Source: a virus. From it: DNA of 64,000 nucleotides. A model generated the notes under the pieces. The model ran no database searches. It was not told where the DNA came from and saw only the letters and a list, made by a program, of their open reading frames with translations. Both the position numbers and the translations under genes were made by a program. Positions 5,497-64,000 of this stretch are shown piece after piece (position 1 is the first letter of the stretch; every line of letters begins with the position of its first letter). The stretch spans positions 1 through 64,000 of the IMG/VR virus record IMGVR_UViG_3300047480_000598, one strand, 5' to 3'.

Positions 5497-5498
5497 CT

Positions 5499-6452
5499 AT
5501 GAGAGCAAATGAATTCATAAGTGAAGCGTTAAACACATCACGATATTCGGCACAAGTAACTAATGCTATGCTTGATAGTCTTGCAGAAATTATTATCACC
5601 GATTATAACGAATCTAATCGAAGAAGAGAATTTAATTTTGATATACAAAATAGTTTTTTAGAAGCTGCCGAAGCCTCCTTAAATTCTACTAAGCGGTGGG
5701 GGAACAAAAAGGTTAGTCTAGCATTTAGTAATAACACCGAAGGGGCAAGATTTAATAGAGCCACTTATGAAATGACTGTGTCATCTGGTTTTGTAGATAT
5801 ACTAGTACAAAACATTGAAGAATTTTGTGAGTTGTATATAAAGGAAAGACAAATTCCATTAAAGATATCTAACATCAAACCAGGATTATACAATAGTCCT
5901 GTTCATGATACTGTTTCGTTCATTGTAGGGTTAATAATACATGAATTCACACACGGAGTACAACAAACTCTACAAAAAAACATATACCCAACCCACGGGT
6001 ATCTTGCACCAAGAGCTGACGACTATGATGCAGCAATGTCTAGAATCAATAAATTGCCTTTGGAAAAAGATCATAAAATTTATGCTAGTAGTCCGGACGA
6101 AATCGGTGGTCATGCCGCGCAAGCAGCCGGTCGAATAATTTCGTTAATGGCTCATATGCCAAAAGAAGAACAAATTAAGAAATTACAAAAATTACTTAGC
6201 AACCCTAAAGAGTTTGTTTCTATAGTAGCTCGTGGTGTTAAAGATACTGCGTTTAATGTATTAAGATTTAATCAATCGCATAGAAAGGAAAAATATGTAT
6301 TTGATCAATATTTAAAACGATGTTATGAGTTACTTCTTGATTATTTAAAATATATTCAAGGTCGTAATGTTAATCCTACGATCGATGATAAAGTTAATGC
6401 TAACTATGAAAAATGGTTAAAATCTCAAAAAGGGCCGGGAAACAAAAAATGA
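5499..6452 (+). CDS. Zinc metallopeptidase-like protein (HExxH) with capsid-targeting-like leader (317 aa)
   Basis: ATG 5499 is chosen over TTG 5493 because it gives the leader MRANEFISEA. At residues 148-152 the sequence LIIHEFTHGVQQ contains HEFTH, the HExxH zinc-binding and catalytic signature of gluzincin/metzincin peptidases, set in a hydrophobic helix as expected. A downstream SPDEIGGHAAQAA (Glu near residue 201) could give the third zinc ligand. The C-terminal third is helical and basic. With the leader, this would be a protease carried in the capsid and delivered to the host, or a morphogenetic protease sequestered in the prohead. It overlaps the next gene by ATGA. Activity is inferred from the motif only. 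Confidence 0.75.
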   Translation: MRANEFISEALNTSRYSAQVTNAMLDSLAEIIITDYNESNRRREFNFDIQNSFLEAAEASLNSTKRWGNKKVSLAFSNNTEGARFNRATYEMTVSSGFVDILVQNIEEFCELYIKERQIPLKISNIKPGLYNSPVHDTVSFIVGLIIHEFTHGVQQTLQKNIYPTHGYLAPRADDYDAAMSRINKLPLEKDHKIYASSPDEIGGHAAQAAGRIISLMAHMPKEEQIKKLQKLLSNPKEFVSIVARGVKDTAFNVLRFNQSHRKEKYVFDQYLKRCYELLLDYLKYIQGRNVNPTIDDKVNANYEKWLKSQKGPGNKK

Positions 6453-49783: not shown

Positions 49784-50218
49784 ATGGTTGATAAAATTGT
49801 TTGTAGTGGTGCCCTAGTATATTCAAAAGAAACTAAAAGATTTTTATTATTACAAAAATCTCATGGAAAGCACTCCGGTACATGGGGTTTAGTAGGCGGA
49901 ACTACTGTCGAAGGAGAAAATCCGTGGCAAGGGTTGCAAAGAGAAATTGTTGAAGAAATTGGATCTATTCCGGCGATAATTAAAACTATTCCGATAGAAA
50001 CATTTGTATCTAACGATACTGTTTTTCATTTTCACACATACTTATGTGTAGTCGAAAACGAATTTATTCCAGTGTTAAGTGACGAGCATTGTGGATGGTC
50101 GTGGGCTACAATTGACAAATCGCCAAAACCTCTGCATCAAGGATTAAAAAATAGTTTTTCGAGTAAAATTATTCGAGCTAAAATACAAACAATTTTTGAT
50201 TTAATGGATTTAATATAA
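49784..50218 (+). CDS. Nudix hydrolase (144 aa)
   Basis: The Nudix box is GGTTVEGENPWQGLQREIVEEIG, at about residues 38-60, matching Gx5Ex7REUxEExGU, which binds metal and cleaves a nucleoside diphosphate bond. The rest has a normal small Nudix beta-alpha-beta layout (FLLLQKSHGKHSGTWGLVG). The substrate may be an oxidised or unusual nucleotide, a nucleotide sugar, or a cap. It is the first gene of the plus-strand accessory block and overlaps the next gene by one base. T4 also has a Nudix gene (nudE), but specificity cannot be transferred. Confidence 0.85.
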   Translation: MVDKIVCSGALVYSKETKRFLLLQKSHGKHSGTWGLVGGTTVEGENPWQGLQREIVEEIGSIPAIIKTIPIETFVSNDTVFHFHTYLCVVENEFIPVLSDEHCGWSWATIDKSPKPLHQGLKNSFSSKIIRAKIQTIFDLMDLI

Positions 50219-51039
50219 TGTGGTTTAAAAAGAAAAGTTGGGTTCGATTTTATTCTCTAGATCAAAATGTTGCTACTGTTTATCCGATTATCGAATCTAA
50301 AGTAACTCCTCGAGATTGGAACGGGGTTGGAAATTTAGAGAGAAATAGGCCCGAACAAGGTAAACAAACTGTACTAAATTGTCCTGCAATAAAACAAGTT
50401 ACGAGCATAGGGTATGTATTAAAAGCGCCTGCTGATTTTGTTATTAAAACCGACGGTAACCATTCACCGATATCTTGGGAAACTCCGATTTTATTTAAAC
50501 GGCATAGTGACAAATACACATTTAGCACTTCTGATTATTATGTTAGTTGGCATAGCCCTGCACAAACAGAACCGGTTATTCCTCGCGAATGCCCTCATGC
50601 AGATAAAGAATACATGCATAGTGCGATAAAAGTCGAAACTCCATGGAGAGTAAAGTCTAGCGATGATATTGTATTATTACAATTACCTGTAACTTATAAT
50701 AACGAAGAACGATTTAGCGCCGCAGTTGGAATAGTTGATCCTCGATATATGCATGCCATTAGTGTACAACTGTTATGGCATATCACCAAAGGTGAAACTT
50801 TAATAAGAGCAGGTACACCTCTAGTTCAGTATATTCCCGTTAGTAGAAAACTACTAGAAAAGGGTAATATTGATTTTATTGTTGATACAGCAACCTCTGT
50901 TGAAGAGGAAATCGAAGATGCATATATTTTCTCAAATCATAGTCGATTTCCAAGAAGTGACACAGTAACAAATAAAATTAAAGTTATTACATCGTTGTTT
51001 GATTATTTTAGAAAGAAATATCCAAGATCTAAAATTTAA
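50218..51039 (+). CDS. Unidentified protein, possibly DUF6065-like (273 aa)
   Basis: A beta-rich protein with VLNCPAIKQVTSIGYVLKAPADFVIKTDG, SDYYVSWHSP, KVETPWRVKSSDDIVLLQLP and LLWHITKGETLIRAGTPLVQYIP. The 'CPA ... GY-x-L-x-x-P-x-D' opening resembles an uncharacterised family that, as I recall, includes proteins near tryptophan-halogenase and oxygenase genes. This would fit the neighbourhood, but I am not sure of the family. It converges with the 51036-51626 oxygenase. No catalytic residues can be named. Confidence 0.55.
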   Translation: MWFKKKSWVRFYSLDQNVATVYPIIESKVTPRDWNGVGNLERNRPEQGKQTVLNCPAIKQVTSIGYVLKAPADFVIKTDGNHSPISWETPILFKRHSDKYTFSTSDYYVSWHSPAQTEPVIPRECPHADKEYMHSAIKVETPWRVKSSDDIVLLQLPVTYNNEERFSAAVGIVDPRYMHAISVQLLWHITKGETLIRAGTPLVQYIPVSRKLLEKGNIDFIVDTATSVEEEIEDAYIFSNHSRFPRSDTVTNKIKVITSLFDYFRKKYPRSKI

Positions 51040-51626
51040 ATTACTAATCGTGTAAGAGGGGCTAGATTAATATTACCTTTTACAAATGTATTAAATGCCA
51101 AACTAATCCTGGGAGTTTCTCCAATATATTCCTCAACTAAGTGTTCAACGTTACTTGGAAACAAAATCATCGATCCAACCTCTGGAGTCATAGACCAACT
51201 TCTAGAATTATATAAGTTAGCTTCTACGATATTATATTCAATAGTATCAAACTGGCTTGTGATAAATTTAATTCGTCCGCTGTCTCCAGCTGATTCAAGA
51301 AATACAACTCCGGATACTATCGAGTTTGGGTGCCAATGTCGATGATGGGATTGCCTACATTCTGTTTTATTAAACCAGCTTTCTGTAATATATATTTCAA
51401 CATCTTGATTAGCTCCCATTACCCCATAAAAGTATTCCGATAATCCATCTGATATTCCAGATAGTAAATTACTATATTTTGATTCAGATAATACATTCTG
51501 TGATGTACTAATCCAATTTTGATAATTTTGTGCCCATTGTATTTCCGATAAATCTACATTAGTAGTGTTTAAATACGTTTTAAATACAGGTTTTGAAAAT
51601 AAAGGTATTAACGACTTTTCATTCAT
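51036..51626 (-). CDS. 2OG-Fe(II) oxygenase-fold protein, TIGR02466-like (196 aa)
   Basis: Double-stranded beta-helix oxygenase. SHHRHWHPNSIVSGVVFL (residues about 95-112) holds the His-x-(D/E/H) metal site in the 'H-P-N-S-x-x-S-G' setting of this family. The distal strand SMILFPSNVEHLVEEY supplies the second His, and RISLAFN supplies the 2OG-binding Arg. Such enzymes hydroxylate small molecules or proteins. It is a minus gene between plus genes, with a weak AGAGAG ribosome site. Confidence 0.8.
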   Translation of the reverse strand: MNEKSLIPLFSKPVFKTYLNTTNVDLSEIQWAQNYQNWISTSQNVLSESKYSNLLSGISDGLSEYFYGVMGANQDVEIYITESWFNKTECRQSHHRHWHPNSIVSGVVFLESAGDSGRIKFITSQFDTIEYNIVEANLYNSRSWSMTPEVGSMILFPSNVEHLVEEYIGETPRISLAFNTFVKGNINLAPLTRLVI

Positions 51627-51698
51627 AAATCTCTCTAAATTTAAGAAAAGTATATAGTCATTTGATATATATTACTACCAAATAAACGATATTTTCAC

Positions 51699-52277
51699 AT
51701 GGAATTAAAAGAACACATCGCATCATTTACAAAAGTAATGACGCACAAAGAATGTCAAATTCTTATCGATCATTATAACACATTGTCGAATCTAAATCTG
51801 AGCTTTACTCGAATTGATCTTAGAGATGCACCAAATCATAAAAAATCAGATACAGCAGTATTTGTATTAGAAGAATCGTCTGTACGAATTACTCCAGATA
51901 TGGGATTTTTAAATTTTTTCTTAGATAGGCTTTGGAAATGCTATGAAGAATATACTACTAAGTATAGCATCCTTGAACAAGCCAACAAACATCAAGTTAG
52001 ATCGATGAAAATTCAGAAAACTCTTCCGGGTGAAGGTTATCATGTGTGGCATTTTGAATCTGATACATTAGAACATTCATCTAGACTCATAACTTGGGGA
52101 TTATATCTCAATACAGTGGAAGAAGGAGGAGAAACTGAATTTTTATATCAAGGGTTGAGAGTTTCGGCAGTTGAAGGAACATTAGTAATGTGGCCAGCTA
52201 CTTATACCCATGTTCATCGAGGTAATCCTCCGTTAAGTGGAGAAAAGTATCTTCTTACAGGATGGATTGAATATTAA
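51699..52277 (+). CDS. 2OG-Fe(II) oxygenase, prolyl-4-hydroxylase-like (192 aa)
   Basis: MKIQKTLPGEGYHVWHFESD (about residues 102-121) has the proximal metal-binding His and acid (HFESD or HVWHFE), followed by LITWGLYLNTVEEGGETEFL, the usual strand of this family. VMWPATYTHVHRGNPP gives the distal His and KYLLTGW the 2OG-binding basic residue. Similar proteins are common in marine T4-like phages. It heads the plus-strand run that leads into the halogenases, joined by an ATGG/TAATG junction to the next gene. Confidence 0.85.
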   Translation: MELKEHIASFTKVMTHKECQILIDHYNTLSNLNLSFTRIDLRDAPNHKKSDTAVFVLEESSVRITPDMGFLNFFLDRLWKCYEEYTTKYSILEQANKHQVRSMKIQKTLPGEGYHVWHFESDTLEHSSRLITWGLYLNTVEEGGETEFLYQGLRVSAVEGTLVMWPATYTHVHRGNPPLSGEKYLLTGWIEY

Positions 52278-52900
52278 TGGAAGTTCTTAATCTATTTCCT
52301 ACTGAAGTTTTTGTTTTTAAAAATTTAACAATTGATAATTCTAATTTAATTATTAATCTAGAAAAGTTTGCAGACCAAGTTAAACAATCAAGTAACATAA
52401 GTTATATTAGAAATATTCATGATAAACAAGAAACTAAAGAATTGTTCGATTGGTGCAAAAATTGCTTAGAAGAAATTAGATTAAAGAATCGTTATGATTG
52501 TGATCAATTTGAAATTACAAGTAGTTGGTTTAATAGAGCATTACCAAATTCCGGAATGTGCCAAAATTACCACAGGCATTCTTTAAGTTTTTTTAGTGCT
52601 GTTTATTATCTTACCGACGGATCTCCTACTGTTTTTGAAGATCCTGTAATTCATAGAACACAAGCACAATTAGAAGTATTACGAAAAGATTTCAATCCAT
52701 ATGAATACATACAACCCGAGCCGGGAAAATTAGTAGTTTTTCCAAGTTGGCTGTATCACACTTCTTTACCTCATGTTACAGGTAAGGATAGATATATTAT
52801 CAGTTTTAACACTTTGCCGACGGGGTACGTAAATTATAATGTTGCTACAGATTCCGTTGCTCATATCACATTAGAAACTAAAGAAAAAAAATATGATTAA
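52277..52900 (+). CDS. 2OG-Fe(II) oxygenase-fold protein (207 aa)
   Basis: QNYHRHSLSFFSAVYYLTDG (about residues 97-116) gives the His-rich proximal site, PEPGKLVVFPSWLYHTSLPH the distal His, and KDRYIISFN the Arg-x-Ser of 2OG binding. It overlaps the first halogenase by eight bases. The family is close to TIGR02466. The proximal acid of the triad is not clear (H-R-H instead of H-x-D), as in several proteins of this cluster. Confidence 0.78.
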   Translation: MEVLNLFPTEVFVFKNLTIDNSNLIINLEKFADQVKQSSNISYIRNIHDKQETKELFDWCKNCLEEIRLKNRYDCDQFEITSSWFNRALPNSGMCQNYHRHSLSFFSAVYYLTDGSPTVFEDPVIHRTQAQLEVLRKDFNPYEYIQPEPGKLVVFPSWLYHTSLPHVTGKDRYIISFNTLPTGYVNYNVATDSVAHITLETKEKKYD

Positions 52901-54380
52901 TTCAGTATGTGTGTTAGGAGGAGGTAATGCAGGTCTAATGGCTGCACTTTATCTTAAAACTTCATTACCTGCATTAGATGTATTGCTTATTAAATCTAAA
53001 AAAATCGGTACAATCGGAGTCGGTGAAGGAAGTACAGAACATTGGTCAGCATTTGCCAATGCAGTTGGGATCAACATAGTCGATTTAATACAGCATTGTG
53101 GTGCTACTATTAAAATAGGTATAAAATTTGAAAATTGGCACGGAGATGGAACTAGTTATTTTCATAGTCTTCCGGAATTTTTAGCATCAATGCATTCATA
53201 CTCTGGTGCACCGTATACTTTAATGAGATTAATAGGCGACGGCATAGGAACTGAACAATTACATTGGGACTTACCGATGAAAGGATATGTTCGAGAACCG
53301 TTAACTGACTATTATCAATTTCATTTTGATAGTGAAAAACTAAATTTGTTTTTAGAAGATAGATGTAAGTTAATCGGAATTAAAATTATTGATACTGAGA
53401 TTGTTGGACCGGAATTAGACAATGAAGGATTTGTACAAAATATTGTCGATGTTAATAGCCGACGATTTTATGCTGATTTCTTCATCGACAGTAGTGGATT
53501 TAACAGAGTCATTGCTTCTAAATTAGGAGCAGAATGGGTTGATTGGTCAAAATATTTACCTTTGAATAGTGCCATTGCATTTCAAACAGCGTATGAAGAA
53601 GAGATCCCTCCCTATACTTTAGCAAAAGCTATGAGCAGTGGGTGGCATTGGAGAAGTCCAGTACAGGATCGATATGGAAACGGATATGTATTTAGTGACC
53701 ATTTTATCTCAGAGACACAAGCAATCGATGAAATTCAAAAACAGTTTAAAGATACCATTCATATCGGACGAAAAATAAACTATATCTCAGGGAAAGTTAA
53801 TCGAGCATGGATTAAAAATTGTGTGTCTATTGGACTTAGTAGTAATTTTGTTGAACCTTTAGAGGCGAGTAGTATTTCGACTACTATAAAACAACTACAG
53901 TTATTAACTACTACAATGTGGAATTGGTCTAAAGAAGATGTTAATGGAATTAAATCTTATAATGCAAACGTCGATGATATGATGAATAACATCTTAGACT
54001 TTATACAGCTTCATTATTTTACACAAAGAGATGATACTAATTTTTGGAAATGGTGTAAGAATGAGATTGTCATGACTGATTTTAATAAAGAAAATTTAGA
54101 ATATTTTAAGAAAAATTTTGTAAATCATGCATTATTACCCGAGGACAGTGTATTCCAGAATTATCGTATATATGATTGTTTAAATTGGATTCAAGTAATG
54201 CACGGGTTACGAATGTTTGATACTGCAAAAATTAAAGAATTATATGAAAAGCATTTTGGTTTTATGAGGTATGCAGATGAACAAAATATTTCTACAATTC
54301 AAAATAATAAAACCGACGAATGGATGACTTGTCGTGAAGCGATTAATTTTGTTAAGAATCCAAAGGTATATAAATTATGA
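52893..54380 (+). CDS. Flavin-dependent tryptophan-halogenase-like protein 1 (495 aa)
   Basis: FAD-binding GGGNAGLMAALYL (residues 8-20) and GVGEGSTEHW. The conserved Lys that forms the halogenating chloramine site in this family is likely the Lys in ATIKIGIKFENW (near residue 75). The catalytic Glu is in NFVEPLEASSI. The diagnostic WxWxIP reads WHWRSP here (near residue 250), so Ile is changed to Ser. The enzyme would add Cl or Br to an aromatic or indole substrate with reduced flavin supplied by a reductase, which is not seen in the window. It overlaps the next halogenase by ATGA. Confidence 0.82.
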   Translation: MINSVCVLGGGNAGLMAALYLKTSLPALDVLLIKSKKIGTIGVGEGSTEHWSAFANAVGINIVDLIQHCGATIKIGIKFENWHGDGTSYFHSLPEFLASMHSYSGAPYTLMRLIGDGIGTEQLHWDLPMKGYVREPLTDYYQFHFDSEKLNLFLEDRCKLIGIKIIDTEIVGPELDNEGFVQNIVDVNSRRFYADFFIDSSGFNRVIASKLGAEWVDWSKYLPLNSAIAFQTAYEEEIPPYTLAKAMSSGWHWRSPVQDRYGNGYVFSDHFISETQAIDEIQKQFKDTIHIGRKINYISGKVNRAWIKNCVSIGLSSNFVEPLEASSISTTIKQLQLLTTTMWNWSKEDVNGIKSYNANVDDMMNNILDFIQLHYFTQRDDTNFWKWCKNEIVMTDFNKENLEYFKKNFVNHALLPEDSVFQNYRIYDCLNWIQVMHGLRMFDTAKIKELYEKHFGFMRYADEQNISTIQNNKTDEWMTCREAINFVKNPKVYKL

Positions 54381-55882
54381 TTAACTCTTTGTGTATTTTG
54401 GGCGGGGGTACTAGTGGATTAGTCTCAGCATTAATACTTAGGAAAGGTTGGCCTGAACTTAAAATTACTATTATCGAAAGTTCAAAATATGGAATTGCCG
54501 GAGTTGGAGAAGGTAGTACCGAACATTGGAAGAACTTTATTCAGCATGTTGATATTACAATACCTGATTTAATCAGAGAGACAGATGCTACATTTAAAAT
54601 GGGTATTAAATTTACAAATTGGCATGGTGATAATACACACTATTTCCATAGTTTATCAGAACAATGGGGCGGTATAAGTAGAACTAATGGAGTTCCGTTT
54701 ACTTTTGCAAAACAAATTAGTGAAAATGTTGATCCGTTAGAAACAGCATGGCATTTATCTAAAAATAGTCGACATATTGAACCTTTACATGATATTCTTA
54801 GCCAATATCATTTTGATACATTTAAATTAAATGAATTTTTACATAAAAAATGTATCGAACGAAATATCGATATTATTGATACTGAAATTAATGACGTGAT
54901 CTTAGATAACGAAGGTCATGTGAAGTCGTTACTCGATTGTAATAATAACATTCATTCTTACGAATTTTATGTTGATTGCAGTGGATTTCGACGTGTAATA
55001 GGTTCTAAATTAGGGGCTAAATGGATTGATAGAAGTGCGCAATTACCGATGAACTCTGCAATTGCATTCCCTACCAGTTACAAAGAAGAAATTCCATCAT
55101 ATACAGAAGCTACCGCATTAAGTAGCGGTTGGTGTTGGCGAATTCCGACGCAAGAAAGATTTGGAAACGGTTATGTATTTTGTGATCAATTTATTACCGA
55201 AACTAAAGCATACGACGAAGTACAACAACATTACAAAAATTTAGGTATTAATGATTCGATAGACATTGGACGAACTTTCAAATTTCAAGCAGGATATGTT
55301 GATAAATTTTGGATTAAAAACTGTGTAATGGTGGGGCTATCAGGTGTATTCGTGGAGCCACTGGAAGCTAGTTCGATAGGAACAACAATTCAACAACTCT
55401 TTATATTAGTAGCATCTTTATTTTATTATGATCGAACCAATTCCAATACTGCTACTAGATATAACAAACATATGACTGAAATTTCTGAAAATATTATTGA
55501 TTTTATACAATTGCATTATTTTACTCAGCGTGAAGATACTGAGTTCTGGAAATGGTGTAAACACAACATTAAATTAACAGATTTTAACGCCGAAAATTTA
55601 GATCATTTTAAAAATGATTTTGTAAATGCACAATTTTTTGGAACTCCGATGGTATTGTTTTCTCAATTAAATTGGATTCAAGTAATGCATGGACTAAGGT
55701 TGTTTAATATTCCTGCACTAAAGGAGAAATATGATAAACATATGAAGGATATTTATACTTCGGTCGTAAACAATATAATGGAAGAAGATCGCGAATTTGT
55801 TAAAAAGAGGGAATCCTTTCCTCATCGTATTGCATTAGAAATGATTAAGGAGAGGTTCAATGAAGTTAAAATACAACTCTAA
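54377..55882 (+). CDS. Flavin-dependent tryptophan-halogenase-like protein 2 (501 aa)
   Basis: The most canonical of the three. GGGTSGLVSALIL (residues 8-20), GVGEGSTEHW, the Lys in ATFKMGIKFTNWHG, the intact WxWxIP as WCWRIP (about 253-258), and GVFVEPLEASSIGTT with the catalytic Glu. C-terminal HYFTQREDTEFWKWC is shared with protein 1, showing recent paralogy. It starts by ATGA overlap and ends 23 bases inside protein 3. The substrate is not predictable; free tryptophan, peptide or pyrrole are known ones in the family. Confidence 0.85.
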   Translation: MINSLCILGGGTSGLVSALILRKGWPELKITIIESSKYGIAGVGEGSTEHWKNFIQHVDITIPDLIRETDATFKMGIKFTNWHGDNTHYFHSLSEQWGGISRTNGVPFTFAKQISENVDPLETAWHLSKNSRHIEPLHDILSQYHFDTFKLNEFLHKKCIERNIDIIDTEINDVILDNEGHVKSLLDCNNNIHSYEFYVDCSGFRRVIGSKLGAKWIDRSAQLPMNSAIAFPTSYKEEIPSYTEATALSSGWCWRIPTQERFGNGYVFCDQFITETKAYDEVQQHYKNLGINDSIDIGRTFKFQAGYVDKFWIKNCVMVGLSGVFVEPLEASSIGTTIQQLFILVASLFYYDRTNSNTATRYNKHMTEISENIIDFIQLHYFTQREDTEFWKWCKHNIKLTDFNAENLDHFKNDFVNAQFFGTPMVLFSQLNWIQVMHGLRLFNIPALKEKYDKHMKDIYTSVVNNIMEEDREFVKKRESFPHRIALEMIKERFNEVKIQL

Positions 55883-57419
55883 AGTAGTTATTTTAGGAGG
55901 TGGAACAGCCGGATGGCTTACTGGTTTGTTTATAAGAAGAAATTGGCCGAATACATCTATCACTATTGTAGAAGATCCAAATAGACCTCCAATTATAGCA
56001 GGCGAAAGTGGAAATACTACGTTTCTTTCTTTATTAAGACATTTAAAAATTGATAATGACGAGTTTATTCGAGAGGTAAATGCTACACCTAAATTAGGAG
56101 GAAAATTTACAGACTGGAACGGAGTTGGAACAGAATTTATACATTGTTTGCAAACCGATTATGCTCCTTGGTTAGATGGTTGGACTGACTATGTAACTCA
56201 AAATATCGATAAGGACGATGACTTAACCTTAGGGTCATTAGTTAGTATCATGGACAACGAACGGTCTAAAGATGCTTATCTAAAAACTTTAATCGGAAAT
56301 AATATACCCTTAGCTGATGCATTTTTTGCTACATATTTTATTAAAGAAGATAAAGTTCCATTTGGATCATTGCTAGATATCCCGTGTATTCCGATGTGGC
56401 ATTTTGAAAGTCGAGGAGCTGCTGCATATTTTAAAAAAATTGGATTAGAAAGAAACATTACATTAGTCGAAGGGGAATACAAACATTCAATTCAATGTGA
56501 GAATGGAGATATTAGTAGCATCACATTAAATAACGGAGTTTCTTTAGAGGGGGATTGGTTTTTTGATTGTTCAGGATTTTCAAGGTTATTGCTTGGCGGT
56601 GTTTTAAAAGAGCCAATAGTAGATTACACGAATTATTTTCCTGCAAGATCAGTAGTTGCATGGTGGGATCAATCTTGCCCATGTGTTACAACTAATTCGA
56701 TAGCTATGAAATACGGCTGGTCTTGGAATATTAATATACGTTGTCGATCAGGAAATGGATATATCTACGATCCCGATCATATAAATCTCGATCAAGCAAT
56801 CGACGAAGTGAATCAGCGATTTAACCTTAAAATCGATCCTATTGCAAATTTCACATTTGTCCCCGGAATGATGCGTAAAGCATGGAAAAATAATGTTTTT
56901 GCCATAGGGTTAAGTAGCGGATTTTTAGAACCGTTAGAAGCAAATGGCATTGCTGTAATTGTAGAAAGTTTGTTCGGGTTACAAGATTATTGGAGTCCTT
57001 CTCAAAAAAATTATGAAAAATCGACTATAGATAGATTCAACGATCGTATTTGGTATATTACAGAAGATATTAGAGATTTCCTAACTTTACATTATCGAGG
57101 CCATCGTTCTGATAGTGATTTTTGGAGGAGTCATAATAATGACTCGTTTAGAGTACCTGATTCTCTAAAGGAAAAACTAAGTTTATGGGATCAGTTTTAT
57201 CAAGGAAAGGGACCAGAACCATATATAACCGGATATTCTCCTGCTGCTTGGTTAATGGTATTACAAGGATTAAAGATTTTTGACCATACTCGTATTGCTG
57301 ATTTAAATAAAAATTTATTACCGTTAGGTAAGAAGATACTAAATATCAATGAAAATAAATATAAGTCTATGGTTGATTCATGTTGGACTATACATCAATG
57401 GATTAAAAATATAAAATAA
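55860..57419 (+). CDS. Flavin-dependent tryptophan-halogenase-like protein 3, divergent (519 aa)
   Basis: GGGTAGWLTGLFI (residues 11-23), GESGNTTF in place of GxGEST, the Lys in ATPKLGGKFTDWNG, and GFLEPLEANGI. The motif WxWxIP reads WSWNIN (near residue 287), with Pro lost. It is more distant from proteins 1 and 2 than they are from each other, so it was probably acquired separately or split off earlier. The C-terminus has DFLTLHYRGHRSDSDFWR. A late octamer follows it for the next gene. Confidence 0.8.
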   Translation: MKLKYNSKVVILGGGTAGWLTGLFIRRNWPNTSITIVEDPNRPPIIAGESGNTTFLSLLRHLKIDNDEFIREVNATPKLGGKFTDWNGVGTEFIHCLQTDYAPWLDGWTDYVTQNIDKDDDLTLGSLVSIMDNERSKDAYLKTLIGNNIPLADAFFATYFIKEDKVPFGSLLDIPCIPMWHFESRGAAAYFKKIGLERNITLVEGEYKHSIQCENGDISSITLNNGVSLEGDWFFDCSGFSRLLLGGVLKEPIVDYTNYFPARSVVAWWDQSCPCVTTNSIAMKYGWSWNINIRCRSGNGYIYDPDHINLDQAIDEVNQRFNLKIDPIANFTFVPGMMRKAWKNNVFAIGLSSGFLEPLEANGIAVIVESLFGLQDYWSPSQKNYEKSTIDRFNDRIWYITEDIRDFLTLHYRGHRSDSDFWRSHNNDSFRVPDSLKEKLSLWDQFYQGKGPEPYITGYSPAAWLMVLQGLKIFDHTRIADLNKNLLPLGKKILNINENKYKSMVDSCWTIHQWIKNIK

Positions 57420-57422
57420 ATA
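57415..57422 (+). promoter_or_regulatory. Late promoter AATAAATA before the 68-aa gene
   Basis: The octamer overlaps the halogenase 3 stop. Predicted +1 near 57428 gives a 12-base leader with GGGAG before ATG 57440, the same leader length as gp13. Confidence 0.6.
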
Positions 57423-57439
57423 TAGTATGGGAGAAAAAC

Positions 57440-57646
57440 ATGGCTGTTTATAAAATGATTCTAAGAGACGGTGAAAATCCGGACACTTCTAAATTGCATG
57501 TAATTGCATACTTTTGCAATGCAGAAACTAAACTTGAAGCTGCAAAATTATTTGACGACAAGTTTGGGCCTAAGTGGAATGTAGCAGGTCCAACAAAAAT
57601 TGAAGACGAATCTTCAATTCCAGGCGACGCAAATTTTATTAATTAA
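57440..57646 (+). CDS. Small protein after the halogenases (68 aa)
   Basis: An acidic protein with a beta-alpha-beta beginning (VYKMILRDGENPDTSKLHVIAYFCNAETKLEAAKLF) and a loop with KWNVAGPTKI. No carrier-protein Ser motif (DSL) is present, so it is not an obvious acyl or peptidyl carrier. It has its own late promoter and GGGAG site, suggesting high late expression. It converges with the oxygenase at 57643. Function unknown. Confidence 0.65.
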   Translation: MAVYKMILRDGENPDTSKLHVIAYFCNAETKLEAAKLFDDKFGPKWNVAGPTKIEDESSIPGDANFIN

Positions 57647-58278
57647 ATTTTACTTGCATTATCTATAAGATCTTTAACAGTTGCAATATGTTGTAACTCA
57701 GACTGCACTGCCTGGCTGGTGTACTCGAACGGTAATCCTAAGCACGGCCGAGTATCATATTTTAGCCAGGCATCTGTACCTGTTGCATCTACATATTGAA
57801 GGAAACATTGTATATGCTTTGAACTAGTCAACGGATCTCTCCAATGTGCATGTTTTCTTCCACTATAAATTCCAGCATCTCCGACTTCTAGTCGGATTTC
57901 ATGCGTTGTGCCGTTTTCGTTTTTAACGTACAATGGCCAAATTTCGGTTTGCATCAAACATATACTAACTGTTACTTCAGAGCTTGCTCTGTCAAAATGA
58001 TATTGCAGTTTGCTTCCTTCGTAGTAAATTCTAGCATAGGAATATGTAGGATACAATTTCATTTGTACTGCTTCTTCAATTTTCGGTTGTATTTTTACAG
58101 CTAATGCTTCTATCATGAGAGGACTATATCTTGCAAATGTATTTTCACACAAATCGGCTAAATTTGCAGTAGGATAAAGATGCTTACATACATCTTCCAT
58201 CATTTGATATTCTAATGCAATAAATTCTGCTAACTCTTTACTAATAATGTTTTTAATAATTTTATAATCTTCTTTCAT
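57643..58278 (-). CDS. 2OG-Fe(II) oxygenase-fold protein, prolyl-hydroxylase-like (211 aa)
   Basis: SKLQYHFDRASSEVTVSICLM (about residues 111-131) has the clean His-x-Asp site (HFD). VGDAGIYSGRKHAHWRDP gives the distal His, and HIQCFLQYVD with a following D-RPCLGLPF closes the fold. It ends the long minus-strand oxygenase run. The sequence FARYSPLMIEALAV near the start is a lid-like helix. The clear triad makes iron- and 2OG-dependent activity likely. Confidence 0.8.
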   Translation of the reverse strand: MKEDYKIIKNIISKELAEFIALEYQMMEDVCKHLYPTANLADLCENTFARYSPLMIEALAVKIQPKIEEAVQMKLYPTYSYARIYYEGSKLQYHFDRASSEVTVSICLMQTEIWPLYVKNENGTTHEIRLEVGDAGIYSGRKHAHWRDPLTSSKHIQCFLQYVDATGTDAWLKYDTRPCLGLPFEYTSQAVQSELQHIATVKDLIDNASKI

Positions 58279-58829
58279 AATAGCGGTATTAAACTCATGT
58301 TTCCAAAAGGTCGTTCAATATATTTTGTTACATATTTTTGTAAAGGTAGTGTGTGAACATCGTATCCGATAGTTGTTCGGATTCCTTCAAACGGCTCTAT
58401 TAATTCAACTTTATGTTTTCTATAACCGGGAGCAAAATAAATCTGTCCTACTTCGTTTTTAATAGTATAATTTTCGAAAATAGTGTTAGTATTTTTTGGT
58501 TCAATTGAAATGTATCCGTGATATTCAAATTCGTGAGCATGCCAATCTAACATCTCATCAGAACTATGATAATTAATCCACGCTTGTATCCATAAAGGTC
58601 GATCGTCGCCCAATTGCGATCTAATAAGTGTTCTAAGTTCCTTATATATTTGATGAAATGCACTAGATGGTGCTGTGAGAGCAAATACATTATATTTGTG
58701 ATAACTCCATGTTGAGTCATCTGCTGGAAATACTTGTTTAAACACTCGATGAGCGATTGCAATATCTTCTTTAATTAAATCGATATTATCGACAATATAT
58801 TGAGATTGATGAAGAATATAATCATTCAT
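58275..58829 (-). CDS. 2OG-Fe(II) oxygenase-fold protein (184 aa)
   Basis: WINYHSSDEMLDWHAHEFEYHGYISIEP (about residues 87-114; HAHE at the proximal site), VGQIYFAPGYRKHKVELIEP (distal His) and GIRTTIGYDV (basic residue). ATGA overlaps with both neighbours. As in many members here, the proximal acid appears as Glu in HAHE. The N-terminal 75 residues are helical. Confidence 0.75.
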   Translation of the reverse strand: MNDYILHQSQYIVDNIDLIKEDIAIAHRVFKQVFPADDSTWSYHKYNVFALTAPSSAFHQIYKELRTLIRSQLGDDRPLWIQAWINYHSSDEMLDWHAHEFEYHGYISIEPKNTNTIFENYTIKNEVGQIYFAPGYRKHKVELIEPFEGIRTTIGYDVHTLPLQKYVTKYIERPFGNMSLIPLL

Positions 58830-59437
58830 AAAATTATAGATCCTAAATTAATGTTTATCAAGCATCTAAATTCTGATTCTTTGCAAAAACTTGCTGTGTG
58901 ATAATAATGCCCGGGAAATAATAATAGTTTTCCTTGTTTAGGAGTAATACGTCTTTTAACACTAAAAGGTCCTAATTTTATTTTATTAATATCCTTTTCT
59001 CCAGAATCAAAATCGTCATTCGTTTCATTAAAAATAATTGTATCCCCGTCACTGTTATTAACATAATAAATTGCCACATAATGAGGGAAGAAACTATCAA
59101 TATGAGGCATGAACTGATCTAATTCCGTAGACTGGCCTGATAATGTAAGATTAGCTCGCATTCTTAATAACCTATTGATTGGTAGATTCTTAACTTGGCT
59201 TGTTAATGATAATACTATCGGATATACCATATCGAAAAAGTTACTAGTTGATTTATTATGCTCGTAAAAAAAATGGTTGAATCCTGGGGGATTATTTTTT
59301 TGATTTAAAAAACAATCGTCGCCAGACACAATATTTTTGTTTAATACCCACGGGAAACTAAATCCAGTCATAATGTCGGCGATATATTTTTGTTGATCTA
59401 CAGGAATTATGTTGTCAATTTCGATTATGTCAGTCAT
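58826..59437 (-). CDS. 2OG-Fe(II) oxygenase-fold protein, prolyl-hydroxylase-like (203 aa)
   Basis: LDQFMPHIDSFFPHYVAIYYVN has the His-x-Asp site HID (about residues 108-110). GDTIIFNETND follows, then QGKLLLFPGHYYHTASFC with the distal His and FRCLININLG with the 2OG Arg. The same architecture, down to 'HYVAIYYVN', appears in 61356-61940, so these two are close paralogues. Confidence 0.82.
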   Translation of the reverse strand: MTDIIEIDNIIPVDQQKYIADIMTGFSFPWVLNKNIVSGDDCFLNQKNNPPGFNHFFYEHNKSTSNFFDMVYPIVLSLTSQVKNLPINRLLRMRANLTLSGQSTELDQFMPHIDSFFPHYVAIYYVNNSDGDTIIFNETNDDFDSGEKDINKIKLGPFSVKRRITPKQGKLLLFPGHYYHTASFCKESEFRCLININLGSIIL

Positions 59438-60051
59438 TGCTTTTTTCGTATATTACCGGATATAGAAATTCGATAGCCATCGGCTGTAGAAAAAGGATAA
59501 ACCATATGCGGAAGTGCAGATGGAAATAACATTATTGTCCCTTCAGATGTCCGATCAACTACAAATTCAGATTCTCTTGATTCTCCAAATACATTAGTAT
59601 ATACAAAAGAGAACATACCCGGGCGGGGCATATTGGTTAATTTACACATATCAGTTAATATTTCGTCTTGAAAATAAAATGGTACTTTTAACCATATTAC
59701 GAAACTATATATACCATCATGTGTATGCATGGGATTAAACTCGTGTTTTTTTTGAAAATTGGACCAATATACATACATTTCAAGATTATTAGAACTTAAA
59801 TTGTTGCGAGTATATGTAATATCCCAGTTTTGCTCGTATTGTTGACATAAAGTTAACACATACTGTTCTAACTCTTTATGGCATTTACTCAACTTAAATT
59901 CTAACGAAATATTTCCAGCAAGATTATTATTATATCTTTCTGCTGTGTTAAAATCTAACTCGTTTATTTCTGTGTTTAGTTTATTAAATAATGATTGAGG
60001 AACGCTATCTTTAATAAATCCATAGTTTGCAAAATTGCCGTATAGTGTCAT
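59434..60051 (-). CDS. 2OG-Fe(II) oxygenase-fold protein, TIGR02466-like (205 aa)
   Basis: FNPMHTHDGIYSFVIWLKVP (about residues 103-122) gives HTHD, a good His-x-x-Asp-like site. GTIMLFPSALPHMVYPF gives the distal His and YRISISGN the Arg-x-Ser pair. It starts by ATGA with its upstream neighbour. The metal site is more conventional than in 62649-63248, a likely relative. Confidence 0.75.
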   Translation of the reverse strand: MTLYGNFANYGFIKDSVPQSLFNKLNTEINELDFNTAERYNNNLAGNISLEFKLSKCHKELEQYVLTLCQQYEQNWDITYTRNNLSSNNLEMYVYWSNFQKKHEFNPMHTHDGIYSFVIWLKVPFYFQDEILTDMCKLTNMPRPGMFSFVYTNVFGESRESEFVVDRTSEGTIMLFPSALPHMVYPFSTADGYRISISGNIRKKQ

Positions 60052-60659
60052 ACAGCTAAACCAAAAAAGTTAATAGTTAATCTAGAATCATCTAAATTGT
60101 TTCCAAAAAACTTATCTGCACCGTGCCATTGTTCCGGATGAAACATTAAACACCGATTAAAAATGTTTTCCACCGACATTGTTCTTGTAAACAGTTTTTT
60201 CTGATCTAATTTAAATTTTTCAAAATTAGAACGTTCATCTAAATTAGCAGAAATTTCGTCAAAAAATAGCTGATTAAAGTTAGTATCACTCGACGATATT
60301 TTGTTATAAAAACTTGTCCCTGTCCCTTCTGGCGGATCTGGGTTTAAATAAATTACTCCTGCTACATTATATTGTGGTTCGTCTTGATGCAGCCAACCGG
60401 ATCCAAAACTTCCGTCAACACTTGTAAAATTTACCTTAAGATGTAAAAAATTATTTTTATCGTGTATATGCAACATAAGTTTCGATGCAAGAGAATTAAA
60501 TAGTTCCATATCTAACTCGTTTAACGTTGCTGATCTTACACCCGGCCATGTTGAGGTCTCATCTCTCGAATACTGCTGTTTTAATGCAAAGATTCTCCAT
60601 AAATCCGGAGACTCAAAAAAGTTATCGATAACTTTAATCGGTTGTTTTAATTTTCTCAT
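60048..60659 (-). CDS. Oxygenase-fold protein, DUF6445-like, copy 1 (203 aa)
   Basis: GSGWLHQDEPQYNVAGVIYLNPDPPEGTGTSFY (about residues 84-116) with HQDE, then NIFNRCLMFHPEQWHGADKFFG with the distal His and DSRLTINFFG with the Arg. This signature, 'H-x-D-E ... N-x-A-G-V-I-Y-L-N ... N-R-x-x-x-F ... H-x-A-D', matches a family of oxygenase-like proteins often seen beside tryptophan halogenases. The next gene upstream is its paralogue. Confidence 0.78.
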   Translation of the reverse strand: MRKLKQPIKVIDNFFESPDLWRIFALKQQYSRDETSTWPGVRSATLNELDMELFNSLASKLMLHIHDKNNFLHLKVNFTSVDGSFGSGWLHQDEPQYNVAGVIYLNPDPPEGTGTSFYNKISSSDTNFNQLFFDEISANLDERSNFEKFKLDQKKLFTRTMSVENIFNRCLMFHPEQWHGADKFFGNNLDDSRLTINFFGLAV

Positions 60660-61363
60660 GACTTTATAAAAAATACCTGTGTTAATCTAGAATCTTCTTT
60701 CGTTTTTCCGAAAAAGTTGTCGGCGCTATGCCAACACCTTGAATCAAACATAATAAGACGATTAAAAACATTCTCGACTACAATACTTTTTTCGAATTTT
60801 GATATTTGATCTTCTCTATATTTTTGATATTTTTCTCGATCGTTAGGTGACGACAAATGTACATCTTCAACAAACGCTTTTGAATACTGGTCCCCGTTGA
60901 AATCTACCGAATCCTCGTATATCGTTGTACCTGCACCTAACGGTGCATCTTTATTTAAATATATAATCCCTGCTACTTGAAACGAAGGGTCGTCATCATG
61001 TACCCATCCTCGGCCATATGTTTCGTCGATACTTTGAAATCCGGTTTGAAGTTCTGATACTTCTGTTATTCCGTATTCTTTTAAGATAAACAAAAGTTTT
61101 TTTAACGTTACATTAAACAGATTTCGATTTAATCGATGTAATAATTCAGTTCTAAGACCAGGCCAATTCCCTCGATCACCTTTAAAAAATTCTTGACTTA
61201 ACGCAAAATCTCTCCATAAATTAGGATCTTCATAAAAATTATCTACTACGATAGTCGGTATGTATGGATATAAAAATCTGTTTTTTAAATCATTAAGTTT
61301 GATAAAATCTGAACTACTTTGATTTAACTCATTAGTGAAACGATTAATAAAATGATTATTCAT
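60656..61363 (-). CDS. Oxygenase-fold protein, DUF6445-like, copy 2 (235 aa)
   Basis: Same layout as copy 1: GRGWVHDDDPSFQVAGIIYLN, then NVFNRLIMFDSRCWHSADNFFG and EDSRLTQVFF. It carries a 30-residue N-terminal extension with FLYPYIPTIVVDNFYEDPN, similar to PIKVIDNFFESPDLW of copy 1. The tandem arrangement and shared ends indicate duplication. HDDD gives a good His-x-Asp metal site. Confidence 0.78.
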   Translation of the reverse strand: MNNHFINRFTNELNQSSSDFIKLNDLKNRFLYPYIPTIVVDNFYEDPNLWRDFALSQEFFKGDRGNWPGLRTELLHRLNRNLFNVTLKKLLFILKEYGITEVSELQTGFQSIDETYGRGWVHDDDPSFQVAGIIYLNKDAPLGAGTTIYEDSVDFNGDQYSKAFVEDVHLSSPNDREKYQKYREDQISKFEKSIVVENVFNRLIMFDSRCWHSADNFFGKTKEDSRLTQVFFIKS

Positions 61364-61940
61364 GGTGTGTAGCTTTAAAGTTTATGGTTATAGCTAATCT
61401 TTTTGTATGTACTTTTGGGCATGTACTTGAATGATAATGTGCTCCATTAAAAATTAATAGTTTTCCTTGTTCAGGAGTGCATTTATGCATAGGATAATAT
61501 TTTTCCGATTGTTCAAGTTCATGAAAAACTACCGTATCACCGTCGGATTTATTTACATAATAAACTGCTACATAATGATCAGTATGGAAGTCTTTATGGG
61601 GTATATTATATCTATAAGGCATACTCGGAAGTGAATACTTTGTGTTTAATAAAAACCCTGCCCTAACTCGTAATAAATCTACAATTTTTAAATTTGTTTT
61701 TTCATTAATTGTATTTACTAGCGGTTCAATAAATTTAAAATGTGGATTTTCAGTTTGATCGTAGTAATATAATAGATTTCCAAATGCCGGAGTACTTATT
61801 TCCGGAGTATTAGAATATACAGTTGTAGAATCCTCCATGAAGTGCCAATCAAATTTTATATCAGTAAGATATTGGTATATTGCTTTTTGGTACTCATAGT
61901 CTACAAAATTATTAATTTCAATCGGTTTAAATATGCTCAT
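61356..61940 (-). CDS. 2OG-Fe(II) oxygenase-fold protein, prolyl-hydroxylase-like (194 aa)
   Basis: ATG 61940 (MSIFKPIEINNF), preceded by AGGA, is favoured over a start at 61967 that overlaps the upstream gene more deeply. IPHKDFHTDHYVAVYYVN has HKD and HTD as candidate proximal sites (about residues 112-120). GKLLIFNGAHYHSSTCP gives the distal His and KRLAITINF the Arg/Lys. Close to 58826-59437. Confidence 0.8.
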   Translation of the reverse strand: MSIFKPIEINNFVDYEYQKAIYQYLTDIKFDWHFMEDSTTVYSNTPEISTPAFGNLLYYYDQTENPHFKFIEPLVNTINEKTNLKIVDLLRVRAGFLLNTKYSLPSMPYRYNIPHKDFHTDHYVAVYYVNKSDGDTVVFHELEQSEKYYPMHKCTPEQGKLLIFNGAHYHSSTCPKVHTKRLAITINFKATHHE

Positions 61941-62652
61941 GATTAATCCTATATATATTTCTATCAATAGAGTTAGTCGGTAATTCTGTAGGGAATCTAT
62001 TCCAACAAGGAATACTCATACTTAGTCTCTTTGTGGTTGGATTTGCAACGTGGAAACATCTAGATGGTATATACAATCCATCGCCGGGTGTTAAAACTAC
62101 ATCGATTGCAAGATCTAATTCATCTTCTTGAATTAAGTTATTCATTATTCCTGTTCGATGCATATACGATATTCTATTATTAAATACCTTCCAGTGTGTT
62201 TCTCCTTCTACTTGAATAATAAAGTTACACGGGTAATCGTCATGGATAGGAAACGAAGTCGAAGAACCTAATCCGCAATACACATGAATAGCAGCATTCA
62301 CACTAAACATCTTTTCAAATATCGATAATAAATGATTTGTTTTTTCGCTATAGAATCCATAATTTGTTATTACAAGTCCGTATCCTTGATTAACTTTACT
62401 AAACATGAATTCTTTATCCTGCACTTTTCGATCCCATATCCATGCTTTAGAATGCTCAGGGATTTCAATCTTCGAATTCGTTTCTGGATCAATCAGTTCA
62501 AATGTATATAGTTCAGGTCTATTTAAACAATTTTCAACATCAGACCATGTAAGAAGATCATTAGAATTAGGTAGTAAATTTTTAAAAAAATGAGGGTTAT
62601 CATTAGTTAATAAATTTGTCTCATTTAATATACGTTGACCTAAATAATTCAT
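61927..62652 (-). CDS. JmjC/cupin-type oxygenase-fold protein (241 aa)
   Basis: SFPIHDDYPCNFIIQVEGETHWKVF (about residues 137-161) holds the JmjC-style His-x-Asp (HDD) and the Trp of the beta core. VLTPGDGLYIPSRCFHVANP supplies the distal His. Related enzymes hydroxylate ribosomal proteins, transcription factors or small molecules. It differs from its neighbours, which are of the P4H/TIGR02466 type, so the operon mixes at least three oxygenase subfamilies. Confidence 0.8.
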   Translation of the reverse strand: MNYLGQRILNETNLLTNDNPHFFKNLLPNSNDLLTWSDVENCLNRPELYTFELIDPETNSKIEIPEHSKAWIWDRKVQDKEFMFSKVNQGYGLVITNYGFYSEKTNHLLSIFEKMFSVNAAIHVYCGLGSSTSFPIHDDYPCNFIIQVEGETHWKVFNNRISYMHRTGIMNNLIQEDELDLAIDVVLTPGDGLYIPSRCFHVANPTTKRLSMSIPCWNRFPTELPTNSIDRNIYRINHEHI

Positions 62653-63248
62653 TCTTCTGTCCTAATTAATTTTACATTGAACGCTACTGATATTCTATCA
62701 TCTTTAGTTGGGTTATGACCAACTCCGTGAGGCAAATGCCCTGGAAACATTACTAATCTTCCGGTCATTGCTTCATATGTTATAGCACTTGCACTAATAG
62801 GTGTATAATTTTTAATTATAGCTTGAGAACTTACAATATAATCGAGTGCATGATTTTTGTAGAAGGTAATATTTCCTTGTCCGGGTTTTGCTTTAACATA
62901 AAAGCAACCGGATAGAAAAGAATTATCGTGAATGTGTACCGAATTACTATTTCCGAAATTGTTAATATTAAACCAAAAATTTTCAATTTTAAGTTTACAA
63001 TAATCTTCATTATACCCGTAATCTCTAATACAATTTTCAGATTGAATTAAAATTTTATCCTCTAACTCTTGCATCTCGGCATAAAGTCCTGGTCGGAAAT
63101 CTTTGCTTTGCCATCCGCCTTCATTGCTTAGTTTTCTTCCTTCCTGATCCGCGTCTCTCATCGTTAAACATAATGATAAAATCGGTTCTGGGTCTATCGA
63201 TGATTGTTCCCACCAAATAGGTGTCGGAAAGTATAGATCATAATTCAT
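62649..63248 (-). CDS. 2OG-Fe(II) oxygenase-fold protein, TIGR02466-like (199 aa)
   Basis: SNSVHIHDNSFLSGCFYVKAKPGQG (about residues 104-128; HIHD metal site, 'NSxLSG' setting). RLVMFPGHLPHGVGHNP gives the distal His and DRISVAFNVKL the Arg-x-Ser. ATGA overlaps both neighbours. It shares the start pattern (YDLYFPTPIW) with TIGR02466 proteins. Confidence 0.82.
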   Translation of the reverse strand: MNYDLYFPTPIWWEQSSIDPEPILSLCLTMRDADQEGRKLSNEGGWQSKDFRPGLYAEMQELEDKILIQSENCIRDYGYNEDYCKLKIENFWFNINNFGNSNSVHIHDNSFLSGCFYVKAKPGQGNITFYKNHALDYIVSSQAIIKNYTPISASAITYEAMTGRLVMFPGHLPHGVGHNPTKDDRISVAFNVKLIRTEE

Positions 63249-64000
63249 CGAAATAGATCTCCTATAGTGCGTGGAGGTAATTCATGGCTAAATGCAAATG
63301 CATGGCTCCATCGAAAATCTACCGTGTCTGATATATAAGCAAGATGACATATATTAGATTCATACATTGTTACAGTTCTCGCTCGAGTAGGTACTATTCC
63401 TATAAGATCAAATCCCCATCTCAGTAATTCGTCATCAGACAAATTGAACCAGTTATTAGACCTTGTTGGATTTTCGCTCATTATTTTCCATTCTTTATGC
63501 ATTATATGATGTTCGTCTATTTGAAAATCATATATTTCGTTATACATTCTTCCGTTATATCGGTATAATTTAGTACCGCTTTCATTTATAGAATGATCAG
63601 TAAACCACATATTTGCCACCATACCGTGTACATAGTCAATATGAGGAATTCTCCAACACGAAATAGGTCTACTTCGATTTTTAAAATATACATTTCCCCA
63701 CTCATGTATTTGTGGATCAAACCAATCAGTCCGTACATTTTTATGATAAAAATCTCTAACTAAAAAACACAATCGATTACTAACCCACTCCGGCACATGG
63801 ATAGTATCAAATGGATTAGGATCAACATTATCGTCGTGATTGTTGTCTTTTTGTATTGGAAAACATGAAATTAAATTTTTATAAATCTCAAATCCGTTAT
63901 CGATAAATGGATCTTCGGCAATCCAATATCCTATCGATTTATCGAGCTTTATATATTCGACATTCCAGTCTTCGACATTCTTAACTTTGATTACCTTATC
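63245..64000 (-). CDS. Oxygenase-cluster protein, 5' end cut by the window edge
   Basis: The minus frame stays open from 63245 through 64000 with no ATG, giving at least 251 residues; a GTG at 63796 is internal and not a good start. Upstream of it the frame codes VKNVEDWNVEYIKLDKSIGY, then FEIYKNLISCFPIQKDNN and VDPNPFDTIHVPEWVSNR. The centre has WRIPHIDYVHGMVANMWFT, a His-x-Asp-containing strand (HID), and the distal part HAFAFSHELPP. The layout suggests another 2OG-type member. The start must lie to the right of the window. Confidence 0.65.
   Translation of the reverse strand, partial: DKVIKVKNVEDWNVEYIKLDKSIGYWIAEDPFIDNGFEIYKNLISCFPIQKDNNHDDNVDPNPFDTIHVPEWVSNRLCFLVRDFYHKNVRTDWFDPQIHEWGNVYFKNRSRPISCWRIPHIDYVHGMVANMWFTDHSINESGTKLYRYNGRMYNEIYDFQIDEHHIMHKEWKIMSENPTRSNNWFNLSDDELLRWGFDLIGIVPTRARTVTMYESNICHLAYISDTVDFRWSHAFAFSHELPPRTIGDLFR

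Follow-up and report, generated by a model that had tools for sequence, protein, structure and literature searches.

Oxygenase and halogenase genes at the locus

We analysed bases 1-64000 (the window) of the 162,335-base IMG/VR virus record IMGVR_UViG_3300047480_000598. A locus that spans the right-hand edge of the window carries 14 oxygenase-fold genes and four halogenase genes (Table 1). Thirteen of the oxygenase genes lie inside the window and the 14th just outside. Eleven of them (R1-R11) form a run of overlapping genes at 57643-64623. An earlier note, made from the sequence of the window, had placed the minus-strand genes correctly and counted eight complete members plus one partial; there are nine complete genes, with a tenth (R2) truncated by the window edge. 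As that note expected, the array continues past the window, and it ends with R1. Beyond R1 lie a small gene, a phrog_7084 protein (p7084), the fourth halogenase (hal4), a phrog_1787 protein and three Gly-rich fibre-tip genes. The other three oxygenases (X1-X3) adjoin three further halogenases (hal1-hal3, 52893-57419) in a cluster to the left of the run.

Table 1. Genes of the locus (window coordinates; later positions are those of the full record)
Feature	Position	Strand	Evidence and predicted metal-site residues
Nudix hydrolase	49784-50218	+	PF00293 5.7e-17; outer edge of left cluster; system role putative
Second phrog_7084 (dUTPase-fold) protein	50218-51039	+	phrog_7084 2.4e-48; paralogue of p7084 beside hal4
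X1, TIGR02466/phrog_81 oxygenase	51036-51626	-	PF13759 5.5e-19, phrog_81 1.5e-31; H97-x-H99...H162, R173
X2, P4H-like phrog_61 oxygenase	51699-52277	+	PF13640 9.9e-10, phrog_61 1.2e-40; H118-x-E120...H173, K183
X3, TIGR02466-type oxygenase	52277-52900	+	PF13759 2.4e-15, phrog_81 1.3e-33; H99-x-H101...H161, R172
hal1, flavin-dependent halogenase	52893-54380	+	PF04820 2.7e-98; phrog_2928
hal2, flavin-dependent halogenase	54377-55882	+	PF04820 1e-98; 52% identity to hal1
hal3, divergent flavin-dependent halogenase	55860-57419	+	PF04820 1.7e-84; WSWNIN replaces WxWxIP
small68, conserved small open reading frame (ORF) closing left cluster	57440-57646	+	Found in related contigs; no family match
R11, phrog_2954 oxygenase	57643-58278	-	phrog_2954 6.9e-50, PF13532 4e-4; H94-x-D96...H145
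R10, phrog_2696, oxygenase fold	58275-58829	-	AlphaFold2 model and PDB matches; H97-x-H99...H139, R151
R9, phrog_274 oxygenase	58826-59437	-	Pfam/PHROG and motif conservation; H112-x-D114...H180, R191
R8, TIGR02466-type oxygenase	59434-60051	-	PF13759 1e-10, phrog_81; H109-x-H111...H182, R194
R7, DUF6445/phrog_1644 oxygenase	60048-60659	-	PF20043 1.7e-17, phrog_1644; HQD...H...R
R6, DUF6445/phrog_1644 oxygenase	60656-61363	-	PF20043 3.3e-15; H122-x-D124...H212, R226
R5, phrog_274 oxygenase	61356-61940	-	phrog_274 1.3e-29, PF13640 2.1e-5; H115-x-D117...H170, R181; ATG start taken, TTG at 61967 likewise open
R4, JmjC_2-type oxygenase (phrog_8014)	61927-62652	-	PF08007 5.7e-16, phrog_8014 6.9e-73; H137-x-D139...H201, R209
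R3, TIGR02466 oxygenase	62649-63248	-	PF13759 7.5e-21, TIGR02466 1.3e-27, PDB 3bvc/2rg4; H105-x-H107...H174, R185
R2, DUF6445-like oxygenase	63245-64000 in window, to 64042	-	phrog_1644 4.3e-17; H134-x-D136...H233, R244
R1, phrog_81 oxygenase	64039-64623, outside window	-	
small83	64610-64861, outside window		
p7084	64861-65658, outside window		
hal4	65633-67246, outside window		
phrog_1787 protein	67343-67840, outside window		
Three Gly-rich fibre-tip genes	67860-70452, outside window		

For 13 of the 14 oxygenase genes, Pfam or PHROG gives a match to a family of oxygenase type; the best PHROG E-values, from 4e-17 to 7e-73, put the homology far beyond chance. Five fall into phrog_81/PF13759 (X1, X3, R1, R3 and R8), two into phrog_274 (R5 and R9) and three into phrog_1644/DUF6445 (R6, R7 and, more weakly, R2), with phrog_61 (X2), phrog_2954 (R11) and JmjC_2 (R4) represented once each. 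R10, the sole gene without such a match, belongs to phrog_2696, a family of unknown function; its AlphaFold2 model (pLDDT 91.4) matches 2-oxoglutarate (2OG) oxygenases, namely 3bvc (TM 0.60), a mimivirus lysyl hydroxylase and a BesD homologue. Family and structure matches together confirm that all 14 genes encode Fe(II)/2OG oxygenase-fold proteins, with catalysis predicted, and bear out the earlier note's dense array of several subfamilies in one run. The curated PF13759 cut-off is exceeded by X1, X3, R1, R3 and R8, with R10 below it; of the two proteins scored against TIGR02466, R3 passes and X1 narrowly misses the cut-off (60.6 vs 62.5). We rejected a recent tandem amplification of the array, as the paralogues are mostly less than 32% identical (39% for R6 and R7).

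Eight members (R2, R4, R5, R6, R7, R9, R11 and X2) carry a His-x-Asp/Glu...His triad. The other six, comprising the phrog_81-type proteins and R10, have an invariant or near-invariant His-x-His, so that the proximal His-x-acid ascribed to every member in the earlier note holds for the first eight only. In profile alignments, the second His of R3, X1 and X3 falls on the acid of R9, R5 or X2 (probabilities 84.7-97); the alignments of R8, R10 and R1 are weak or gapped at this position. In most families, 93-100% of homologues keep the metal-site residues, with Glu or Asp at the acidic position in the X2 family. An Arg or Lys past the distal His, the expected 2OG-binding residue, is also kept in most families (its position in R11 is ambiguous). 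By alignment, most members have not lost the metal site, whereas such a loss was what the earlier note had named as fatal to its proposal; a structure model covers one member, R10. The HxD of the R7 group is kept in 27 of 38 homologues. More than a quarter of R7-like sequences lack it at the aligned position and are possibly inactive paralogues or misassigned members. The six His-x-His members also prompt a question as to the metal site in a large oxygenase family that is as yet uncharacterised.

Among the halogenases, hal4 resembles VirX1 of cyanophage Syn10 (6qgm), by far its closest PDB match (E 1.4e-197, ~55% identity). It has the features of PF04820 halogenases: the flavin adenine dinucleotide motif G10-x-G12-x-x-G15, the WxWxIP motif (W276-x-W-x-I280-P281) and the catalytic residues K75 and E356. 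Five relatives share all of these residues without change, leaving aside the second Trp, which was read from the hal4 sequence. hal1-hal3 are more remote, with only 25-29% identity to hal4 and its relatives, and WxWxIP deviates in hal1 (WHWRSP) and hal3 (WSWNIN). The neighbouring p7084 (4862-5659 of our locus L006) was rejected as a further oxygenase, since its AlphaFold2 model (pLDDT 92) resembles a dUTPase fold, with a best TM of ~0.7 (normalised by target length) in Foldseek.

A recurring unit behind fibre-tip genes

We fetched viral contigs with the JmjC protein, with the halogenase and, independently, with the phrog_1787 protein, called their genes and assigned these with hidden Markov models built from this genome. 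Dozens of contigs show the same order with few changes: two to three Gly-rich genes, the phrog_1787 protein, a halogenase, p7084, a small gene and R1 to R11. In the phrog_1787-fetched set, all 53 distinct proteins are preceded by a Gly-rich gene and followed, within four genes, by a halogenase; this set consists of closer relatives of linked members, because the query alignment was built from halogenase-linked proteins. In a tblastn search of 50,697 phage records, the phrog_1787 protein and the Gly-rich protein match an identical set of 20 records from 11 phages. In every one of these, a halogenase follows the phrog_1787/Gly-rich module directly or after a second halogenase. From these sequence patterns we infer that one halogenase gene and eleven oxygenase genes form a conserved late operon directly behind fibre-tip genes. 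We found no description of this fibre-linked unit in the searched literature, which covered few subscription papers (those on Syn9 and VirX1 lay outside it).

Accessory genes are frequent near phage fibre genes, and the enzymes might have accumulated there by hitch-hiking, sharing no substrate with the fibres. The downstream flank does vary, and hal1-hal3 and X1-X3 differ between contigs. Yet the oxygenase genes overlap by a median of 4-32 bases, with order and overlaps kept across two lineages, and a Trp-bearing tail of the phrog_1787 protein, described below, tracks the halogenase. We therefore consider hitch-hiking improbable.

The two lineages are cyanomyoviruses and, as judged from marker proteins, a relative of jumbo phages to which this genome belongs. 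Its terminase and sheath are nearest those of jumbo phages (terminase 54% identical to PA5oct/Paride and 51% to Phosso), its terminase is 35-36% identical to those of Syn9 and S-CREM1, and psbA was not found in the 162 kb genome. A cyanophage origin is thus not supported. Eleven other contigs with the cassette or a halogenase, the longest of 354 kb, encode terminases that share 59-73% identity with that of this genome. Cassette proteins of this genome and S-CREM1 are 38-63% identical, so the unit has probably been exchanged or strongly conserved between lineages.

The oxygenase array as such is already known. Its families occur in similar order in Syn9 (gp45-gp54) and S-CREM1 (ORF72-80) and in shorter form in S-RIM44 and P-TIM40, at odds with the earlier note's surprise at such numbers when set against the single oxygenases known in marine T4-like phages. 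Syn9 gp40-gp54 and S-CREM1 ORF68-80 share the wider arrangement of fibre-tip proteins, phrog_1787 protein, halogenase(s), p7084, small gene and 9-10 oxygenases; Syn10 also carries the unit. By contrast with the present locus, neither Syn9 nor S-CREM1 was seen to have an adjoining second convergent cluster with three further halogenases and another two to three oxygenases. Several oxygenases are found in most cyanomyoviruses (PMC3037559), with 10 genes in S-CREM1 (PMC9964418) and 24 in S-SCSM1 (PMC9602691). S-SCSM1 likewise combines several subfamilies in one phage, but its ORF numbers scatter the oxygenases over the genome and the text mentions no halogenase (PMC9602691).

A variant unit (L148:5660-12367, L154, L158, L136 and L129) has two to three Gly-rich genes, a phrog_1787-like protein, a ~410-aa phrog_1458 protein and a halogenase, sometimes with one oxygenase before the halogenase; some carry a ~240-aa protein. 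The cassette or part of it also occurs in assemblies assigned to Nonlabens xiamenensis (NZ_RMVE01000006.1), a Euryarchaeota metagenome-assembled genome (NHGE01000052.1) and a Prochlorococcus single-cell genome (QCLS01000024.1), listed among our loci as L257, L259 and L258; these contigs are probably phage sequence within those assemblies. We rejected a cellular origin of the cassette, since the only cassette-bearing "cellular" contigs resemble phage sequence. More distant p7084 relatives (23-31% identity) also occur in cellular contigs; none of them lies near a halogenase or oxygenase of the set.

The gap between the phrog_1787 gene and the halogenase contains a terminator-like hairpin and TATAAATA, the T4 late-promoter consensus, 23 bases before the halogenase start. 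TAAATA occurs in 52 of 94 distinct phrog_1787-halogenase gaps, compared with 14 expected from shuffles. Within 70 bases upstream, TATAAATA precedes 32 of 103 phrog_1787 genes and 24 of 163 halogenase genes, and none of R1-R11 or p7084. The halogenase thus carries a T4-type late promoter motif and the oxygenases none of their own. Because the oxygenase genes overlap by few bases, one late transcript is the simplest reading, as a prediction.

Candidate substrates and the role of the unit

The phrog_1787 protein has 165 residues, and its family model stops at residue 115. A Trp-containing C-terminal tail follows this core (median 46 residues) in 120 of 120 distinct halogenase-linked proteins, with examples such as PAWxRYPGWxGY or GRKAWDPWVDNW. 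Such a tail is found in none of 10 short unlinked homologues (eight within our loci, two in MEP301 and MedDCM-OCT-S46-C10), which end near the core. We rejected this protein as a Pfam tail chaperone, as it has no Pfam match. The Gly-rich domain contains 6.0% His, compared with 0.7% in 20 other Gly-rich proteins from the same loci, and these His residues occupy conserved positions. Three Gly-rich copies exceed the PF21722 cut-off, and there is a match to the tail fibre assembly family phrog_863. By analogy with S16 gp38 and Pam3 gp24, the Gly-rich proteins may be fibre-tip adhesins, as Gly-rich fibre tips are in those phages (PMC9608196).

The earlier note had proposed either stepwise tailoring of one molecule or separate modifiers of host or virion proteins. 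Tailoring of one molecule and modification of virion proteins both stay plausible; synteny, co-occurrence and the late promoter motif favour a target in the virion fibre tip. The most likely role, which we place just short of evenly balanced, is a late-expressed protein-tailoring operon for a phage fibre-tip protein; substrate, enzymatic activity and effect are all inferred. The halogenase and oxygenases would be made late from one polycistronic transcript starting just past the fibre-tip genes and would modify a protein of the adjacent module. For the halogenase, the target would be an aromatic side chain; the likeliest is the conserved C-terminal-tail Trp of the phrog_1787 protein, whose gene lies directly upstream. 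Each oxygenase would hydroxylate a different residue, located either in this tail or in loops rich in His, Tyr and Asn within the Gly-rich proteins. A tip modified in this way would then have altered receptor binding, stability or assembly. We hold more tentatively that this is a dedicated late pathway by which phages halogenate and repeatedly hydroxylate their own receptor-binding fibre-tip protein, with a VirX1-type core enzyme and a unit common to jumbo phages and cyanophages.

A precedent for halogenation of a C-terminal Trp is the proteusin SrpI/SrpE, a ribosomally synthesised and post-translationally modified peptide (RiPP) system in which a leader-guided brominase acts on such a residue (PMC10858898). 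Both involve a flavin-dependent halogenase, and the candidate substrate here likewise has a folded N-terminal part joined by a linker to a Trp-bearing C-terminal tail. The candidate differs in being a phage fibre-linked protein with predicted halogenation, and neither a peptidase nor an export gene was found among the scanned cassette proteins. Although a tail-bearing candidate precursor is present, we do not class the locus as a RiPP system because no peptidase family was found. The open active site of VirX1 (PMC8407142) is a further precedent.

Several observations weigh against a fibre-tip substrate. The peptidase missing from the scanned cassette families is a feature of typical RiPP pathways. 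The halogenase lies outside the fibre module in S-H35, S-MbCM6 and HTVC008M (in Sf-CH11, between other fibre-like genes), adjoining SbcC-like genes in S-H35 and psbA in S-MbCM6; with genes found away from fibres as well, this class of enzyme is not confined to a fibre context. The unlinked controls are small (10 phrog_1787 homologues, 20 Gly-rich proteins), and the comparisons use related sequences and ignore phylogeny. The high His content of the tips might also serve only to bind metal, as it does in T4 gp37. In S-CREM1, virion proteomics detected 14 proteins; the main text names no modification and leaves the presence of the array enzymes unsettled (PMC9964418).

The enzymes might instead make a halogenated, hydroxylated metabolite during infection, with antibiotic-like or signalling activity. 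Homology to Trp halogenases would fit such a product, VirX1 accepts many small aromatics (PMC8407142), and antibiotic protection has been suggested in print (PMC2984593, PMC9964418). However, no scaffold-building, ligase, carrier or export family occurs among the scanned cassette proteins, and neither the late promoter nor the invariant fibre-tip linkage would be expected, leaving a small-molecule pathway quite unlikely in our estimate.

We also regard as unlikely a role directed at the host, in which host proteins or metabolites are hydroxylated or halogenated, or 2OG is drained to tune NtcA and nitrogen stress responses. R4 matches JmjC_2, the family of ribosomal oxygenases. A host-directed function follows the published cyanophage model (PMC3037559, PMC9602691). 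Proposed roles of phage oxygenases range over DNA repair, 2OG/NtcA control, host metabolism and antibiotic protection (PMC9964418, PMC9602691, PMC3037559). The promoter motif is late rather than early, however, the same set occurs outside the cyanomyoviruses, in the present 162 kb genome in which psbA was not found, and draining 2OG would not call for a dozen different enzymes, all near-invariant and kept in a fixed order.

In the searched literature, the first viral halogenase to be characterised and the many phage 2OG oxygenases are treated as host-metabolism genes. If fibre-tip tailoring is correct, it would offer a natural substrate to test for the first known viral halogenase in the cultured isolates Syn9, Syn10 and S-CREM1. 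Host recognition by abundant marine phages would then depend on non-encoded chemistry, hidden from sequence-based host-range prediction.

Annotation of the array families

Three PHROG names label oxygenase-type proteins with a conserved HxD...H: "DNA endonuclease V" (phrog_274), "minor coat protein" (phrog_1644) and "ferrochelatase" (phrog_2954). Proteins mislabelled in this way include R9, R7 and R11 in the window. RefSeq cyanophage annotation repeats the same names, as for Syn9 gp46, gp51, gp52, gp53 and gp54.

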